DNA of 57,347 nt from Chlorobiota bacterium (GTDB lineage: Bacteria; Bacteroidota; Ignavibacteria; OLB7), in NCBI GenBank assembly GCA_028287785.1, contig JAQBOZ010000031.1, forward strand, positions 1-57,347, read 5' to 3'. This document shows positions 20,269 to 34,406 of this stretch, one piece after another (the stretch's first letter is position 1; each line of letters opens with the position of its first letter). The translations under genes were made by a program, and so were the position numbers. The notes beneath the pieces were generated by a model that did no database searches, had not been told where the DNA came from, and saw only the letters and a program-made list of their open reading frames with translations.

Positions 20269-21246
20269 TCAGGCCATCGTCGGCGTTCCGGCGCGGGCAT
20301 GCTCGATCACCTGCCGGATGATGGTCTCCAGCCCCAGCTCCGGCCTGTAGCCGATTGCGCGCTCGATTCTGCGGAGATCGGGAACCCTCCCCATGATCTC
20401 CTCGAACCCGTCGGGATAGGCATCGCGGTAGGGGACGAAGGTGATCGGCGAGCTGCTCCCGGCCAGCTTCCTTACTCTGACGGCGAGCTGCGCCATCGTG
20501 ATGGTGCCATGGCCGCCGATATTGAATATCTCGCCGTGGGCCTCCGGCGATCTGAGGAGCCGGATCATCGCCCGCGCCACATCGAGCACATGGCTGAAGC
20601 ATCGGGTCTGTCTGCCGGTGCCGTAGACGGTGATCGGCGTGCCGCGAAGCGCCTGTTCCACGAATGACGGGATCACCATTCCGCCATGTGCGCTCTGTCG
20701 CGGTCCGGCGACGTTGAAGAGACGGGCGACCACCGCCGGCAGGCGTTCCCGCCGGTGATATGCCAGCGCAAGCGATTCGCCCATCGCCTTTGCTCCGGCG
20801 TAGGCCCATCGAAACGTGGCGGTGCTTCCATACTGGCGCGGATCATCCTCGGCGAGCGGCTCGCGCGTGGCATGGCCGTAGACTTCGGATGATGAGGCAA
20901 TCAACACCGGCCTGCCCCGCGCCGCCGCGATCCCGAGCATCGCCGCCGTCCCCTCCATGTTGGTTCGCATGGCGTCCAGCGGGCGTTCCAGAATCAGTTT
21001 TACCCCAACCATCGCGGCCAGATGATAGATCTCATCGCAGCCGGCGATTGCCTGCTCCAGCATCGGAGTATCCAGCAGATCCCCCTCGATCAGCTCGAAC
21101 AGGGGATTGTCGATGATATCGCGCAGGTTCTCCCGGCTCCCCGTGCTCATATTGTCGAACACGGTGACGAAGTTTCCGGTCGCAATCAGCTCCTGCGCCA
21201 GATGGGACCCGATAAAGCCGGCCCCCCCGGTGATCAGACACTTCAT
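20269..21246 (-). CDS. NAD-dependent nucleotide-sugar epimerase/dehydratase
   Basis: 325 residues, the usual length of extended short-chain dehydrogenases. The Rossmann motif TGGAGFIG sits at residues 6-13, the adenine-binding acid at D31 (VFDN), the catalytic serine region SSSEVYG at 118-124 and the YxxxK pair at Y149/K153. GDL and YHLAAMVGV are conserved as in UDP-glucose 4-epimerases and UDP-glucuronate decarboxylases, as is LFNVAGPRQ. The motifs do not fix the substrate; a UDP-sugar is most likely. The gene follows the deacetylase/sugar-transferase fusion by 70 bp on the same strand, so it probably supplies a precursor for the same surface polysaccharide. Cytoplasmic. Confidence 0.92.
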   Translation of the reverse strand: MKCLITGGAGFIGSHLAQELIATGNFVTVFDNMSTGSRENLRDIIDNPLFELIEGDLLDTPMLEQAIAGCDEIYHLAAMVGVKLILERPLDAMRTNMEGTAAMLGIAAARGRPVLIASSSEVYGHATREPLAEDDPRQYGSTATFRWAYAGAKAMGESLALAYHRRERLPAVVARLFNVAGPRQSAHGGMVIPSFVEQALRGTPITVYGTGRQTRCFSHVLDVARAMIRLLRSPEAHGEIFNIGGHGTITMAQLAVRVRKLAGSSSPITFVPYRDAYPDGFEEIMGRVPDLRRIERAIGYRPELGLETIIRQVIEHARAGTPTMA

Positions 21247-21316: not shown

Positions 21317-22807
21317 TCAACGTCCGCCGAACCCCGTGAGAAGGGCGCCGACCGTTTTCAGGACGATCAGCAGATCGAGCCGGGGAGAGATGTTGATGAT
21401 ATAGTGAAAATCATGTTTCAGCTTGATTCCGATCTCATCCAGCTCCGCCGTATGCCCCTGCGTTACCTGTGCCCAGCCGGTCAGACCGGGCCTGACCATA
21501 TATCGCAGGGCATATAGCGGATATGATTGCTCATAGCGAACGGCAAGCGGGAAGGGCTCGGGGCGAGGCCCTATCAGGCTCATATCCCCCTTCAGAATAT
21601 TCCAGAGCTGGGGAAGTTCATCGATGCGACGGCGTCTGATAAAATGGCCGAACGGCGTGACGCGAGGGTCGGCGTGCGCGGTTGGAAGCGCCCCCGAGTC
21701 ATCGCCAACGTACATGCTTCGAAATTTAATAATCCTGAATATCTCTCCTCCCTTGCCTTTTCGGTTCTGTCGAAAGAGCACCGGTCCGGGCGAGCCGATC
21801 GCAATTGCAGCGGCGGTGATGGCGCAGATCGCGAGCGTGATGGGAAGTGTCGACACAATCAGCAGGATTTCGAGAACCCGTCGAAACGCCAGATATCCCA
21901 CGGGAAGCCGGAGTTGTTCCGGGCGTTTCTCAAGCACAATCGCCGGGGGGGCAGAGGGGGGGAGCCTCTGTTGCAGCGATCCGCGAATTGAAGTAAATCG
22001 AAAATCGCGCAGCAGCATGGTTATTTTTCTCTCCACGCTCTCCAGATTCTGGTAATGACGGAACCGATCCATGCGGCCCGAGGCAATGCGTGGCTGGCGC
22101 GGATCGAGTTCCCACGGGTGGATATAGAACATTACGCCGCGACCATCGCGATGGCAGGCATCGATCAATCGCCTTGTCATGAAATAGGGCATGATCCGGA
22201 AATATCCACCGCCGCCGCAGGGGATGCGCCGACCGGCCACCACGGCGCAGCTCATCGGAATCTCGATGATTCCATTGTCATGGCTGTGAATATCGAGCGG
22301 CGCGTCCACGATGCCATAATCGGGATGGCCCGCGTACGGGAACACCGAGGAGTCGTAGCGGATGCCCATCTCCCGCAGGATATCGATGGACCAGAGCGTA
22401 TCGCGAATAACGGAAAATCTGGGGGCGCGAAATCCTTCGATCGTCGTTCCGGCCGCCCGTTCGGTTGCCTTCAACGCCCGCTCAAGATCGCGCCGGAACT
22501 GATCCGGCGTCATCTGTGTAAGCATCGCGTGAGAGTAGCCGTGTGTGGCAATCTCGTGGCCGGCCTCCGCTACTTCACGTATCAGATCGGGATGCCGTTG
22601 TGCAACCCACCCCAGCACGAAAAATGTCGCCTCGATCCTATGCTCGGCCAGGATTTTGAGAATTGTTCTGGTGCCTATCTCCACGCGCGATTCATGACGT
22701 TCCCAATCCCGATAATTCGGGATTCCCCGATCGCGAAAGCAGAACCATTCCTCAAGATCGACGGTGAAGATGTTGGGGATTTCAGGTTGCGCGACATGTT
22801 CAGGCAT
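21317..22807 (-). CDS. Polysaccharide deacetylase fused to undecaprenyl-phosphate sugar transferase
   Basis: 496 residues with two complete domains. Residues 10-280 match the deacetylase/DUF3473 family known from exosortase (XrtA/PEP-CTERM) polysaccharide loci: FTVDLEEWF (D17), HGYSH (H89, H93), FRAPRFSV (R127-P129) and the DUF3473 signature HPWELDPRQPR then RFRHYQNL. Residues 305-496 are a bacterial sugar transferase: a membrane segment (about 311-337), GSPGPVLFRQNRKGKGG, KFRSM (361-365), RIDELPQLWNILKGDMSL and GPRPEP, RPGLTGWAQV. The second half should load a sugar phosphate onto the lipid carrier to start polysaccharide synthesis. The first half resembles enzymes removing N-acetyl groups. 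They are normally separate genes. The membrane helix between them raises the question of which side each half works on. Probably co-transcribed with the epimerase. Confidence 0.92.
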   Translation of the reverse strand: MPEHVAQPEIPNIFTVDLEEWFCFRDRGIPNYRDWERHESRVEIGTRTILKILAEHRIEATFFVLGWVAQRHPDLIREVAEAGHEIATHGYSHAMLTQMTPDQFRRDLERALKATERAAGTTIEGFRAPRFSVIRDTLWSIDILREMGIRYDSSVFPYAGHPDYGIVDAPLDIHSHDNGIIEIPMSCAVVAGRRIPCGGGGYFRIMPYFMTRRLIDACHRDGRGVMFYIHPWELDPRQPRIASGRMDRFRHYQNLESVERKITMLLRDFRFTSIRGSLQQRLPPSAPPAIVLEKRPEQLRLPVGYLAFRRVLEILLIVSTLPITLAICAITAAAIAIGSPGPVLFRQNRKGKGGEIFRIIKFRSMYVGDDSGALPTAHADPRVTPFGHFIRRRRIDELPQLWNILKGDMSLIGPRPEPFPLAVRYEQSYPLYALRYMVRPGLTGWAQVTQGHTAELDEIGIKLKHDFHYIINISPRLDLLIVLKTVGALLTGFGGR

Positions 22808-28682: not shown

Positions 28683-31600
28683 TTACCGGAGTATGATCAC
28701 CTCGCGACGGTCCCGCTGCGTGGGCGTTCGAAGCTCAAGATAGTAGACTCCGCTCGGAAAATCGGTTCCGGAGAGCGTCACAATGTATGAGCGCGCCATC
28801 AGGCCGGCCTCGACCAGCACCGCCGCCTCCCGTCCAAGCTGGTCGAACAGGGTCAGCCGGGCGGGGCCATCCTCCACGGTCGTGAACTCGATCTGCGACC
28901 GGCCCGCGATGGGGTTCGGGGTTACGCTCTTCAGGCCGAAGCCATCGTTGATCCGTATCAGCCTCCCGGTTCCCCCCGCCAGGCAATACCCGTTGAGCAT
29001 GAACAGGCCGGGCGCCACCGAAAGGGTGGCCCGCTTGCTGTCGGTGCCGGATGTATCGCCGGCCGAAATGAGCGTTGTCACCGAATCGCCCAGCATCACC
29101 TCCGCCTCCAGATAGGCCAGGATGCCGGTTCCCGTCAATGGAACGGTGCCGGTCACGGAGAAGGAAACGCTGCCGGGAGAGAAGTTCTGCGATGCCACGG
29201 TCCAGCCGCCGGAAAGGGTGTTCTCCAGCACGATACGGCGGGGAATGAGCATCGAGGGGTTGAACCGCGCGCTCGCGGTGTAGCCAGTGACGGCCGCCTC
29301 GGTCAGATCATTGTTCAGCAGCAGCGGAACATTCACCGTTTCCCCCGGCGCGCCGGAGACGCGACCCCACATCACCACCCCCTGAATGATCCCCAGATCG
29401 AACCCGGTGGCGGCAACCGGCAGGAAGCTGGAATCGCAGAACACCGGCGATCCGATGGTGATGCTGTCGATATAATCACCCGGCGTGAGCGGGGCGAATG
29501 TGATATCCGCCTCCAGCGAATCCCCCGGCGCAAGCGTGACCGGCAGCGCCGGACGGATTCCGCTCACGGTGAACGGCCCGCCGATCGTAAGCTGGTCGAT
29601 CGTGACCGGAGCGGACCCGGTATTGACGATCCATCGCGTGGAGCTTCCGGTTTTCCCCGCCTCCACCTGCACGAACTGCGGCCCGGCGAGCGCAAGCCGC
29701 TGCGATACCCGCGACCCGAGCAGGGTGATCTTCACCGGCGGGTTGATCGGGTCGTTTGTATAGAGCGTCAGCACGCCGGTGATCGAGGCATCCGGCCCGT
29801 TCCCCGGAACAAATCTGATGATGATCGTATCGGATGCGCCGGCCGGGATCGAGGTTGTCGGCGTCGGGCCCTGAAGGATGGCGAAGGCGGCCGTCGGGTC
29901 CTGCGTGCTGATATCCATGTGCTGCACCACCAGCGGGGCCGTGCCGATATTCCTGATGAAGATCGTATCGCGCGCATCCTGGCAGCGCAGAAGGGCCCCG
30001 AACTGGACCGAAAGCGGCGATACATCGATCCCCCCCGCCGTTCCCGTTCCGGTGATGCCCGCCTCCAGCGTGGACGGGCAGGTGGAGTCGGCGGCCAGGA
30101 CAAGTCTGGTTCCGGCGGGGATATCGCCGATCGCCGACGGCGTGAACCTGAGGCCGATCTGCGTGGATGCCCCTGCCGCGATAAACTGCGGGATCTGTCC
30201 CGGATCGATCGTGATGGTGCCGTTCGGCGGCGCGATCTGCGCGTCGGTGATCCAGACGCCGACGCTGTTTCTGTTGGTCAGCGTGGCGCTGCCGGCCGTG
30301 GAGCCGCCCACCGATACAAGGCCGAAATCGACATTGGTGATATCGTATCGCGCCGACGATCGCTCCGCGGTCACCAGCACGGAGTCGCGGATGTTGCAGG
30401 GGGATATCTCGTAGATCAGCCACGCCGAATAGACGCCGTCGGCAATCGGCGCGAATGTCAGATCCACCGCGACCGAGTCCCCCGGCGGGATCGGCGTCTT
30501 TCCCGGCGGGACGAAGGAGTAGGGGGATGTTATGTACACGGCGTCCAGCGTCGCCGTCGCCGTGCCGATATTCCTCAGCCAGAGCTTTCCCTTGCTCGAT
30601 TTACGGCAGGAGAAGATCTGCGGCAGGATCAGATTTCTGGTGGCGGGAACGATGTTCACCGAATCGAGCACCCCCGTCAGGCTTACCTCGAACGTTTCGC
30701 GGTTCGGATCGGTGGTCGTGAAGTCCAGCGTGCCGCTCGATTCCCCCGCATCGAAGGCCGAGTAACGGACGCGGACCGGCCTGGCGCCGCCGGGGGGGAG
30801 CGTAAACTTTGGGGGGATCGGGGAGAGGAGCGTGAAGATGCCATCCCCCGCGGTCGTGATGTTGGTGATATCGATCGGCGCGGTCCCCGCGTTGAAGACC
30901 ACCAGCGAATCATCCACCCAGTTCGGCTGCGAACACGCGGCGATCGTAAACGCGATCTCCGTTCTGGAAACCCCGATGTTGGCGTTGGTGCCGCTTCCGG
31001 TGATGACGTAGCGCGAGCTGTCGGCGCAGGGGGCATCGACGACGATTGCCATCGCGGTCTTCGGGAGCTTGCCGGCCGCGCCCGGCGTGTACTCGATCGT
31101 CACGCGAAGCGTATCGCCGGGGGCCAGCGTTCTGGCGGGCGGAATGGCGGGCTGGATGATCGTCACCTCGGACGATGCCGGCGCTATCACGATCCTGGAG
31201 ATCGTCACCGGCACGGCGCCCGGAGCGCCCGGGTTGGTGATGATGACGGTTTTCCGGGATGACTTGCCGATCTGCACCTCGCCGAACTCCACGTTCGCCG
31301 GCGCCAGCGCCAGCCCTGCGCGGACCACCTGCCCGCGCAGGATCAGCCGGATACGGCGGTTGCAGGGCTGGTAGAGGAGGGAGAGCGTATCGAGAAACGC
31401 CCCCGGCAGGCCGGCATCGAGACGGATCGAAAGATCGCTGGCGGAGGCGGGAGGAAGCTCGCCCGGAAACTCCGCCGGTATCACCACGGAGAATGGGGAG
31501 GCGGAATCCGAATGCGTCACGCCCACGATTGTCCTGGTTGCCCGCTGCGCGTCATTGCGGATCGGGATCGTCCGGAAGCCATCCTTTCCGATGCAGATGG

Positions 31601-34406
31601 TCCCGAACTCCAGAACGCTGTCCGCAACGCTCAACCCCGCCGGGTCCTTGTCGGCGAACAGGTCGATCGCATACGGGTTCTTTCCCCGAAAGCCGTCGTT
31701 GTTCGCGAAGATCAGTTGCGCGGCCGGAACCGTTCCGGCTCCCGCGTAGATCACGCGAACCGTGATGCCGACGGAATCCCCGGCCCGCACCTGCAACGGA
31801 AATCCGAACGCGGCCGGGGTGATCACCGTATAGTTTGCTGCGCCCGGCCCTGAAAGCGTCGGGTTCTGGAGAACGAGCGGCGCGTTCCCGCTGTTCTTTA
31901 CGAAGAACTGTCCGGTGGCCGTATCTCCGCAGGCCAGCCCCGCCAGCTCCCAGGTTTTCCTGGCGCTGATGATCGGCGAGCGGGCGTAGCCCCTGATGAT
32001 CAGCGTGTCCAGTTGATCGCACGGATCGGAGTAGACCCTGTAGCGGATTTCGAATCTCCCGGTATCGACCGGCGTGTAGGTGAACCCGATGATGGCGGAG
32101 TCCAGCCCCTTCTGGATCGATATAAGAGATGGAGCCGTGCGGACCATCGTCCCCGGCCCGATGGAGAAGAAGGGGACGATCGCGTTCAGCGTATCGCGAT
32201 AGCTGTTCAGGTTTCGGTAGACCGCCACTGTGTCGCGCGAGGTCCCCACGTAGACATCACCCAGATCGATGATCTTCTCCCGAAGGGCGCGGAGCCTCGG
32301 CTCCTTTACCACGTCGATGGCGATATCCTTCTGCGGGCTGGCCGGATCGTTGGTCGCCAGACGGAGCGTGGCGCCGGTCGATCCCGCCGGGGCGGCGACG
32401 CCGTTGAAGCTGATCACAAGCCTGCCGGTGCTGTCCGGACGGATGGTATCGGGAAGCGCCGGGGAGACGATCCTGTAGAACCCTCCGTTCGGGCCGATGA
32501 AGCCGGAGCCGGTGCCGATGATCAGCAGGCCGGTGCCGATGTTTCTGATCGGAATGGTGTCATAAAGTATAGTCGGGCAGGTGACGGTGTCCAGCCGATG
32601 GGCCAGCGGCGCCGAGATCACCGGGATCAGATTGAGCCTGACGATGTTGGCGGCCGACTGCGAGAAGATATGGGAGGGGACGCGGGTGGCCTGGGTCGAT
32701 GCCGTGATATCGGCGGCGGGGGTAAGCTGCACGGCGCAGACGTAGGCGATCGAATCGTACGGGAACGCGATTCTGGCGCTCCAGGTGCTGTCCGCCTCAA
32801 CGATCGCGCGGAACGGCGCGGCGAAGTTCCAGCCGGAATTCTCCCCCCTGACGAATACGTAGATCGAGTCGCCGCCGTTGCCCGGCAGATATCTCCCCGT
32901 CCCCCGTATCGTCCAGTTCATGGAGTCCGCGTAGGTCAGCGTGTCGGTGGTCGGCCCGGTAAAGCTGCTGGCGCCCGTGGTCAGCGAAAACGCGCCGGCG
33001 GTGCGCCCATCATGGCGGAAGCGTCCAATGCCACCATCGCCCGCCACGGGAACTCCCACCGCCGATGCCGCCGCCGTGCCATGCAGCCCGCCGCTTACGT
33101 TGATCGTGCCGATCTGCACGCCACGTTTTCCGCCGACCGTGATTCCGCCGCCCGAGCCGCCACCGGAAGGATCGCCGCTCAACGCGCCGTTGAATCCGTT
33201 CTTTCCATCCCCGCCCCGCGCCTCGGCGCTGGAGAGGAGCACGCCCGTTGCGGAGTAGAGCGCAAGCGCGCCGCCGCCGCCGCCACCGACGCTGTCATTC
33301 GGGCCGCCGCTTGCGCCGCCGGCGCCGCCGTGCAGCGGCACGAGCTGAATGTTCCCGATGATCTGGCCGTTGACCGCGTCCGGCGTTCCCGGAGGAAGGC
33401 CGCTCCCCTTGGTCGCGTTGCCACCGCCGCCGAAATGCTGCCCGAAGGCGAGGCCCACGCCAAGGCCTATCTCACCGGCACCGCCGCTCTGGCCGTTGTC
33501 GTCGAACGGATGTCCCGGCGCGCCGGCGTAGAGGCGTTGCGGGCTGAAGATGGCGCTTGCCTTTACATCGTTGATGCCTGCGGCGTTCGCCCCGGTTCCC
33601 TCGCCGAAATTCCCCGCGATTGCCGGGAACAGGGGAACGGCGCTCGATCCCCCCGCGAACCCGCTGCCGAGCGGGATATCGCGTTCCGCCGGCACCGCGG
33701 GGAGGGGGAAGAATGCTCCCCGTCCGCCGTAACCGCCGCCGCCGCCGCCGCCGGGCCCGCCGTTTTTCGACAGAACGCCCGTGGGCGCGCTTGCCACGAT
33801 CGTTGCTCCGGGGCCTATCACGATCCTTCCCCTGCTCAGGATGATCAACGGGAGATATCCCTGGTTGCCGTTGACCGCGGCGTCGGGATCGCGGGTGTCG
33901 ATGGTGTAAACGCCGTTGTTGAGGATCATGCTGTCAACGATCATCGCCCCTCTGCGGGACCGATTGCCCCAGCCGCCGCCGCTTCCTATCACGCCGCCGC
34001 CATCCTTCACGCCGAACGTCTGCGTCGGCTCGATATGAAAGCTGCCGATATCGAACGTGGAGGTGTTCACCCGTACCTGCATCGGCACATCGCCGAGCGG
34101 AGAATTGGGGGAGATGAAGAACTGAAAGGAGATCATCCGCCTGTCCCAGCTTATCACGCCGGGGGATACCCTGATCCTGAGAGAGTCGGCCGGGTTGGTG
34201 AACGTTATCGAAAGAAATGCCGGCGAGACAAGGCCATCGGCCAGCACGAATTTTCCGAGCTGGCCGACCGGGGCGATCACCTCGACATACGTGTTCATCC
34301 CCGGCGTGCCGACATCGGGGATCATATAGATCATCGGCTGCGCCCCGAGCGGCAGGGCCAGCAGAAAGAGCATCGCCAGAAGCGGAAACGTCTGAACTCG
34401 TTTCAT
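28683..34406 (-). CDS. Giant choice-of-anchor-D repeat protein, T9SS-secreted
   Basis: 1907 residues. Signal peptide (MKRVQTFPLLAMLFLLALPLGA). Residues 25-140 are beta-rich; about 140-450 is an unusual Gly-rich region (GGPGGGGGGGYGGRGAF, GGGGNATKGSG, SVGGGGGGALALYS). From about 590 to 1640 there are roughly ten ASPM-SPD2-Hydin/choice-of-anchor-D units, each with an FGxVxVG strand, a Cys before a DT/DS pair, an IRNIGTAPL motif and a PPGDSxxVxxxF motif. A cohesin-like domain (about 1640-1810) and T9SS type A domain (VTPNPIAGRSQIEF, FPSGVYYLEL, final VIILR) close it. It is probably a long fibrous surface protein with the Gly-rich block near the N-terminus. Divergent from xerC. Confidence 0.9.
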   Translation of the reverse strand: MKRVQTFPLLAMLFLLALPLGAQPMIYMIPDVGTPGMNTYVEVIAPVGQLGKFVLADGLVSPAFLSITFTNPADSLRIRVSPGVISWDRRMISFQFFISPNSPLGDVPMQVRVNTSTFDIGSFHIEPTQTFGVKDGGGVIGSGGGWGNRSRRGAMIVDSMILNNGVYTIDTRDPDAAVNGNQGYLPLIILSRGRIVIGPGATIVASAPTGVLSKNGGPGGGGGGGYGGRGAFFPLPAVPAERDIPLGSGFAGGSSAVPLFPAIAGNFGEGTGANAAGINDVKASAIFSPQRLYAGAPGHPFDDNGQSGGAGEIGLGVGLAFGQHFGGGGNATKGSGLPPGTPDAVNGQIIGNIQLVPLHGGAGGASGGPNDSVGGGGGGALALYSATGVLLSSAEARGGDGKNGFNGALSGDPSGGGSGGGITVGGKRGVQIGTINVSGGLHGTAAASAVGVPVAGDGGIGRFRHDGRTAGAFSLTTGASSFTGPTTDTLTYADSMNWTIRGTGRYLPGNGGDSIYVFVRGENSGWNFAAPFRAIVEADSTWSARIAFPYDSIAYVCAVQLTPAADITASTQATRVPSHIFSQSAANIVRLNLIPVISAPLAHRLDTVTCPTILYDTIPIRNIGTGLLIIGTGSGFIGPNGGFYRIVSPALPDTIRPDSTGRLVISFNGVAAPAGSTGATLRLATNDPASPQKDIAIDVVKEPRLRALREKIIDLGDVYVGTSRDTVAVYRNLNSYRDTLNAIVPFFSIGPGTMVRTAPSLISIQKGLDSAIIGFTYTPVDTGRFEIRYRVYSDPCDQLDTLIIRGYARSPIISARKTWELAGLACGDTATGQFFVKNSGNAPLVLQNPTLSGPGAANYTVITPAAFGFPLQVRAGDSVGITVRVIYAGAGTVPAAQLIFANNDGFRGKNPYAIDLFADKDPAGLSVADSVLEFGTICIGKDGFRTIPIRNDAQRATRTIVGVTHSDSASPFSVVIPAEFPGELPPASASDLSIRLDAGLPGAFLDTLSLLYQPCNRRIRLILRGQVVRAGLALAPANVEFGEVQIGKSSRKTVIITNPGAPGAVPVTISRIVIAPASSEVTIIQPAIPPARTLAPGDTLRVTIEYTPGAAGKLPKTAMAIVVDAPCADSSRYVITGSGTNANIGVSRTEIAFTIAACSQPNWVDDSLVVFNAGTAPIDITNITTAGDGIFTLLSPIPPKFTLPPGGARPVRVRYSAFDAGESSGTLDFTTTDPNRETFEVSLTGVLDSVNIVPATRNLILPQIFSCRKSSKGKLWLRNIGTATATLDAVYITSPYSFVPPGKTPIPPGDSVAVDLTFAPIADGVYSAWLIYEISPCNIRDSVLVTAERSSARYDITNVDFGLVSVGGSTAGSATLTNRNSVGVWITDAQIAPPNGTITIDPGQIPQFIAAGASTQIGLRFTPSAIGDIPAGTRLVLAADSTCPSTLEAGITGTGTAGGIDVSPLSVQFGALLRCQDARDTIFIRNIGTAPLVVQHMDISTQDPTAAFAILQGPTPTTSIPAGASDTIIIRFVPGNGPDASITGVLTLYTNDPINPPVKITLLGSRVSQRLALAGPQFVQVEAGKTGSSTRWIVNTGSAPVTIDQLTIGGPFTVSGIRPALPVTLAPGDSLEADITFAPLTPGDYIDSITIGSPVFCDSSFLPVAATGFDLGIIQGVVMWGRVSGAPGETVNVPLLLNNDLTEAAVTGYTASARFNPSMLIPRRIVLENTLSGGWTVASQNFSPGSVSFSVTGTVPLTGTGILAYLEAEVMLGDSVTTLISAGDTSGTDSKRATLSVAPGLFMLNGYCLAGGTGRLIRINDGFGLKSVTPNPIAGRSQIEFTTVEDGPARLTLFDQLGREAAVLVEAGLMARSYIVTLSGTDFPSGVYYLELRTPTQRDRREVIILR

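Follow-up and report, generated by a model that had tools for sequence, protein, structure and literature searches.

The minus-strand gene at 21317–22807 of the window (the whole stretch of 57,347 nucleotides of Chlorobiota bacterium DNA that was analysed) encodes a protein in which a DUF3473-type polysaccharide deacetylase is joined to a monotopic phosphoglycosyl transferase (PGT). The preferred reading, given a probability of about one half, is that this is a genuine bifunctional monotopic PGT which would prime the lipid carrier with an N-acetylated sugar and de-N-acetylate the lipid-linked sugar, and which would have arisen by the fusion of adjacent genes; both activities, the lipid-linked substrate and the order of the steps are predictions. 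The features on which this reading is built are the following:

21317–22807, minus strand: fusion gene, 496 aa, polysaccharide deacetylase plus monotopic PGT, a single open frame with Pfam and NCBIfam matches in both halves
21980–22774, minus strand: deacetylase region (NodB fold and DUF3473), residues 12–276, from a TIGR03006 match of 301 bits and conservation in 53 homologues
21902–21979, minus strand: linker, residues 277–302 (about 26 residues), with pLDDT below 50 at residues 282–298
21794–21901, minus strand: predicted re-entrant membrane helix, residues 303–338 (helix 303–319, break at 320, helix 321–338), from the AlphaFold2 model of the PGT half
21335–21793, minus strand: PGT catalytic domain (PF02397), residues 339–491, with the Asp-Glu dyad D396-E397
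20269–21246, minus strand: SDR nucleotide-sugar epimerase/decarboxylase-like protein, next gene downstream of the fusion (PF01370, 1.8e-55), with a homologue in the three-gene set of relatives

The initial annotation had described one protein uniting the two enzymes, with complete active-site motifs in both halves, and both points were upheld. The open frame starts with ATG and contains no internal stop. Pfam domains were found at residues 46–150 (Polysacc_deac_1, 1e-23), 153–276 (DUF3473, 1e-39) and 309–490 (Bac_transf, 2.8e-54), with the whole PGT part spanning approximately residues 303–491, and the NCBIfam model TIGR03006 ("XrtA system polysaccharide deacetylase") matched residues 12–274 above its curated cut-off of 276.2 bits. 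The deacetylase motifs HGYSH (H89, H93), RAP (R127) and HPWE (H230) and the PGT motifs KFRSM, DELPQLWN (D396-E397) and GPRP were all present. Among the 53 homologues of the deacetylase, D17, E19, H89, H93, R127 and H230 were invariant and D152 was conserved, and the KxRxM, DExPQ and GPRP residues, including the catalytic pair, were invariant in a PGT alignment of 36 rows. Judged from their sequences, both active sites look intact.

The term Bi-PGT has been given to proteins whose monoPGT catalytic domain carries fused functional domains at either end (PMC10942596). The fusion protein belongs to this class by its domain composition, with a DUF3473 deacetylase as the extra domain and with both activities predicted. 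It differs from the large PGTs of the WbaP type, which carry an N-terminal four-helix membrane bundle and PF13727, in having an N-terminal deacetylase and no PF13727 match. Its deacetylase half scores as a TIGR03006 member with the conserved residues in place and is set apart from that family by the PGT partner and by the lack of an exosortase match in the genome. The closest solved chain to the deacetylase half in a structure search was 3rxz; Foldseek matched CE4 structures and also listed ArnD (8t0j), more weakly than CE4 deacetylases such as 3rxz. ArnD is the deformylase of undecaprenyl-phosphate-Ara4FN and provides a NodB-fold precedent for action on an undecaprenyl-linked N-acyl sugar, which is also the type of substrate proposed for the fusion. 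ArnD is, however, a separate enzyme, and the resemblance is a structural one, with no membership claimed.

The PGT half modelled alone with AlphaFold2 (pLDDT 90, pTM 0.86) showed a helix-break-helix arrangement and superposed on PglC 8e37 (Z 19.9, rmsd 3.0, 176 residues, 38% identity) and on WbaP 8t53 (Z 20.1, rmsd 2.6, 164 residues). The superposition on PglC (VIA match) covered model residues 16–206, including the re-entrant helix, so that the predicted helix, the Asp-Glu dyad and the fold are shared with this small monotopic PGT. The model of the full-length fusion, based on alignment A2, was moderate (pLDDT 77.5, pTM 0.59, linker below 50), with low confidence in the relative placement of the domains. 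In PglC, the re-entrant topology is set by Lys-Arg and (Ser or branched-chain)-Pro motifs, and the N-terminus and the globular domain are both cytoplasmic (PMC6133551). R309-R310 and L321-P322 of the fusion resemble these motifs, their spacing being four residues shorter, and no signal peptide was seen by eye on the deacetylase, whose N-terminus reads MPEHVAQPEIPNIFTVD. Because of the predicted re-entrant helix with PglC-like motifs and the lack of a recognisable signal peptide, the deacetylase most likely faces the cytoplasm, and a periplasmic location was rejected on the same grounds. According to the models, both halves most likely lie on the cytoplasmic face in an ordinary topology, where the initial annotation had taken the membrane segment between them as a sign of something out of the ordinary.

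Searches with the window protein covered 395 genomes of the phylum and five of the family, and 80 loci were retrieved. TIGR03006-type deacetylases were further sought in the class (42 matches among 391 genomes), in the phylum of genome G691, Pseudomonadota by locus title (75 matches among 398 genomes), and in Planctomycetota, the phylum of genome G688 (137 matches among 392 genomes). Just one of these 254 deacetylases from 1,181 genomes, the window protein itself, carried a PGT, which makes the fusion rare within this survey. Most TIGR03006 relatives had open frames of about 270–350 aa. A deacetylase with a PGT needs approximately 450 residues, and all matches from the three surveys with a frame of at least 450 were retrieved for inspection. 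Among all the open frames collected, 164 encoded deacetylases and 102 were recognised by a PGT profile built here; the window protein was the only one to be both, a result that leaves aside some genes at contig ends. These long deacetylases were rejected as further fusions of this kind, as a PGT was detected in none; some were GT2 fusions and others showed no recognisable domain besides the deacetylase. Matches from planctomycetes which spanned both halves of the query were also discarded, since they turned out to be adjacent genes, mostly in reverse order with the PGT preceding the deacetylase. One deacetylase frame (L139, G070:C74:169418-170233) would reach 504 codons were a single TAG read through.

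A scan of ten long deacetylases, drawn from planctomycetes, one proteobacterium and one gemmatimonad, showed six of them (L217, L218, L219, L221, L222 and L227, from planctomycetes and the gemmatimonad genome) to be fused to a GT2 glycosyltransferase (PF00535). In these proteins, as in the fusion, the DUF3473 deacetylase is N-terminal to a sugar-transferring enzyme, but the partner is a GT2 enzyme and not a priming PGT. Among the bifunctional monotopic PGTs, a class already described, the fusion is a rare and probably genuine new combination.

In four relatives, the deacetylase and a small PGT were encoded by separate genes, adjacent or overlapping and in the same order as in the fusion, and in three of them an epimerase gene was also present. 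The epimerase, deacetylase and PGT genes of genome G394 (L137) lie on one strand with a 4 bp overlap between the last two, the cassette of G598 (L177) has a 20 bp overlap between the deacetylase and PGT genes, and that of G163 (L178) consists of overlapping open frames. In G516 (L174), the deacetylase and PGT genes are separated by a gap of 42 bp and the epimerase is missing. The same three functions are found in the window, with the deacetylase and PGT fused and the epimerase-like gene next downstream; its product had UDP-glucuronic acid decarboxylase 4lk3 as the best PDB match, and its matches spanned UDP-glucuronate decarboxylases, epimerases and dehydratases.

The PGTs of the three epimerase cassettes formed a sister group, weakly supported (0.65), to a clade comprising the PGT of the fusion, the PGT of a same-genus genome (G001) and two stand-alone paralogues from the genome of the fusion (G000). 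These small paralogues are located at C36:189828-190457 and C18:9063-9665, and no polysaccharide genes were seen by eye beside the one on contig C36. The second part of the linker matches the N-terminal tail (...DPPVVSLDEMTEERLRSIRLPAGYLALRR) of the C36 paralogue. Because of the cassette in relatives, the PGT clade and this likeness of the linker, the fusion is most simply explained as a merger of two adjacent genes from an epimerase-deacetylase-PGT cassette, the two having probably been coupled in translation.

A trace of the same arrangement was detected in G001, which was assembled separately from the genome of the fusion. A 376-codon PGT open frame on its contig C3 (L103:10475-11602) carries the decayed remains of DUF3473 in its first part, in the same frame as the PGT, with nearly the spacing found in the fusion and no stop in between. 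The remnant gave a local alignment score of 81, whereas 2,000 shuffles averaged 31 and never exceeded 60; scores in the remaining five frames were 26–42, the signal being confined to the PGT frame. The deacetylase has lost its N-terminal catalytic part, an amine-oxidase-like gene lies upstream and GT4 glycosyltransferase genes are nearby. As G001 keeps the PGT while its deacetylase has decayed, the deacetylase is dispensable for priming in this genus, which counts against the preferred reading.

Two runs at the junction bear on whether the single frame is genuine, and a third small feature of the fusion gene is an internal start codon:

21945–21951, no strand assigned: run of seven G in the linker, possible frameshift site
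21956–21962, no strand assigned: second run of seven G in the linker, possible frameshift site
22016–22018, minus strand: internal ATG (M264) in frame with the PGT, with GTGGAGAG upstream, read from the sequence

Because of the two 7-G runs at the junction, a sequencing or assembly artefact has to be considered, in which a one-base error joined a deacetylase gene to an overlapping PGT gene starting nearby. The runs sit exactly where the two homologies meet, between the end of the deacetylase (around residue 276) and the start of the PGT (around 287), a one-base change in either of them would stop the deacetylase close by, at a TGA near 21930 that follows soon after in the alternative frame, and overlapping pairs of precisely this kind exist in the relatives. 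Runs of at least seven G or C are, however, found 11 times elsewhere in the window inside intact open frames of at least 200 aa, no Shine-Dalgarno-like sequence precedes GTG codon 291, the in-frame start nearest to the junction, and the independently assembled G001 carries the remnant in frame with its PGT. An indel artefact at the junction was considered unlikely. Within the intact frame, a start at M264 might give a PGT-only product of 233 aa.

Under the preferred reading of a bifunctional PGT, the PGT half would carry out priming by transferring an N-acetylated sugar phosphate to undecaprenyl phosphate, and the N-terminal CE4-type deacetylase, kept on the PGT's side of the membrane by the re-entrant helix, would strip the N-acetyl group from the lipid-linked sugar or from a short lipid-linked chain built on it, so that the surface glycan would contain a sugar with a free amine. 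The fused partners are plausibly successive enzymes acting on one membrane-bound substrate; in four relatives they are encoded by adjacent or overlapping genes, and the independent deacetylase-GT2 fusions fit a deacetylation among the cytoplasmic, lipid-linked steps of glycan synthesis. Against this reading, the genes scanned around the fusion included no recognisable flippase, polymerase or other polysaccharide gene. The initial annotation had invoked the XrtA/PEP-CTERM setting, which was abandoned, since no exosortase (PF09721) match was obtained in the genome of the fusion, which is 95% complete, nor in 37 of the 43 genomes searched, nearly all of them carriers of a TIGR03006-type deacetylase. 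With no exosortase detected, "XrtA" is here a mere family name, and the label should not be transferred.

The fusion could also be real and yet serve only to co-locate enzymes of one pathway at the membrane, with the deacetylase acting on a UDP-sugar or on the finished repeat unit instead of the primed lipid-sugar. This was regarded as possible, though clearly short of probable: gene adjacency in relatives points to a shared pathway and not to a shared substrate, and the fusions of the deacetylase family to GT2 enzymes, together with a deacetylase found by eye in a glycosyltransferase-type cluster without a PGT, suggest that the deacetylation step may fall at different points. On the other side stands the repeated pairing with a small priming PGT, seen in four genomes and as overlapping genes in at least two of them, which favours a step close to priming.

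Two further proposals concern the attachment of secreted proteins. In one, the enzyme would deliver a free-amine priming sugar by converting Und-PP-HexNAc to Und-PP-hexosamine before chain extension, and the amine on the reducing-end sugar could anchor secreted proteins in an organism with a type IX secretion system (T9SS); this was held to be quite improbable. The other, in which the enzyme would make the free-amine linking sugar for cargo attachment by a PorU-type sortase, comparable to VimE in the Wbp/Vim pathway, was judged highly improbable. VimE is a putative CE4 deacetylase of the proposed linking-sugar pathway (PMC7468200), and the genome of the fusion encodes a PorU-type T9SS sortase homologue scoring over the cut-off and, on contig C14, a FemAB/VimA-like protein scoring below it. 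The co-occurrence with PorU weighs little, though, because all seven genomes tested proved to have this sortase, and the link to the Wbp/Vim pathway is weakened by G001, which has PorU but merely the decayed copy of the deacetylase; in the vicinity of the fusion, no Wbp gene was recognised. A T9SS type A sorting domain, together with choice-of-anchor D repeats, is present in a 1907-aa protein encoded in the window itself, at 28683–34406 on the minus strand.

For the DUF3473/TIGR03006 deacetylases, the literature consulted did not establish which substrate they act on or where. The deacetylase tied to a PGT, the overlapping gene pairs and the GT2 fusions all point to enzymes that deacetylate lipid-linked intermediates inside the cell and not the polymer outside, and the fusion protein makes both the site and the substrate of this widespread deacetylase family directly testable.
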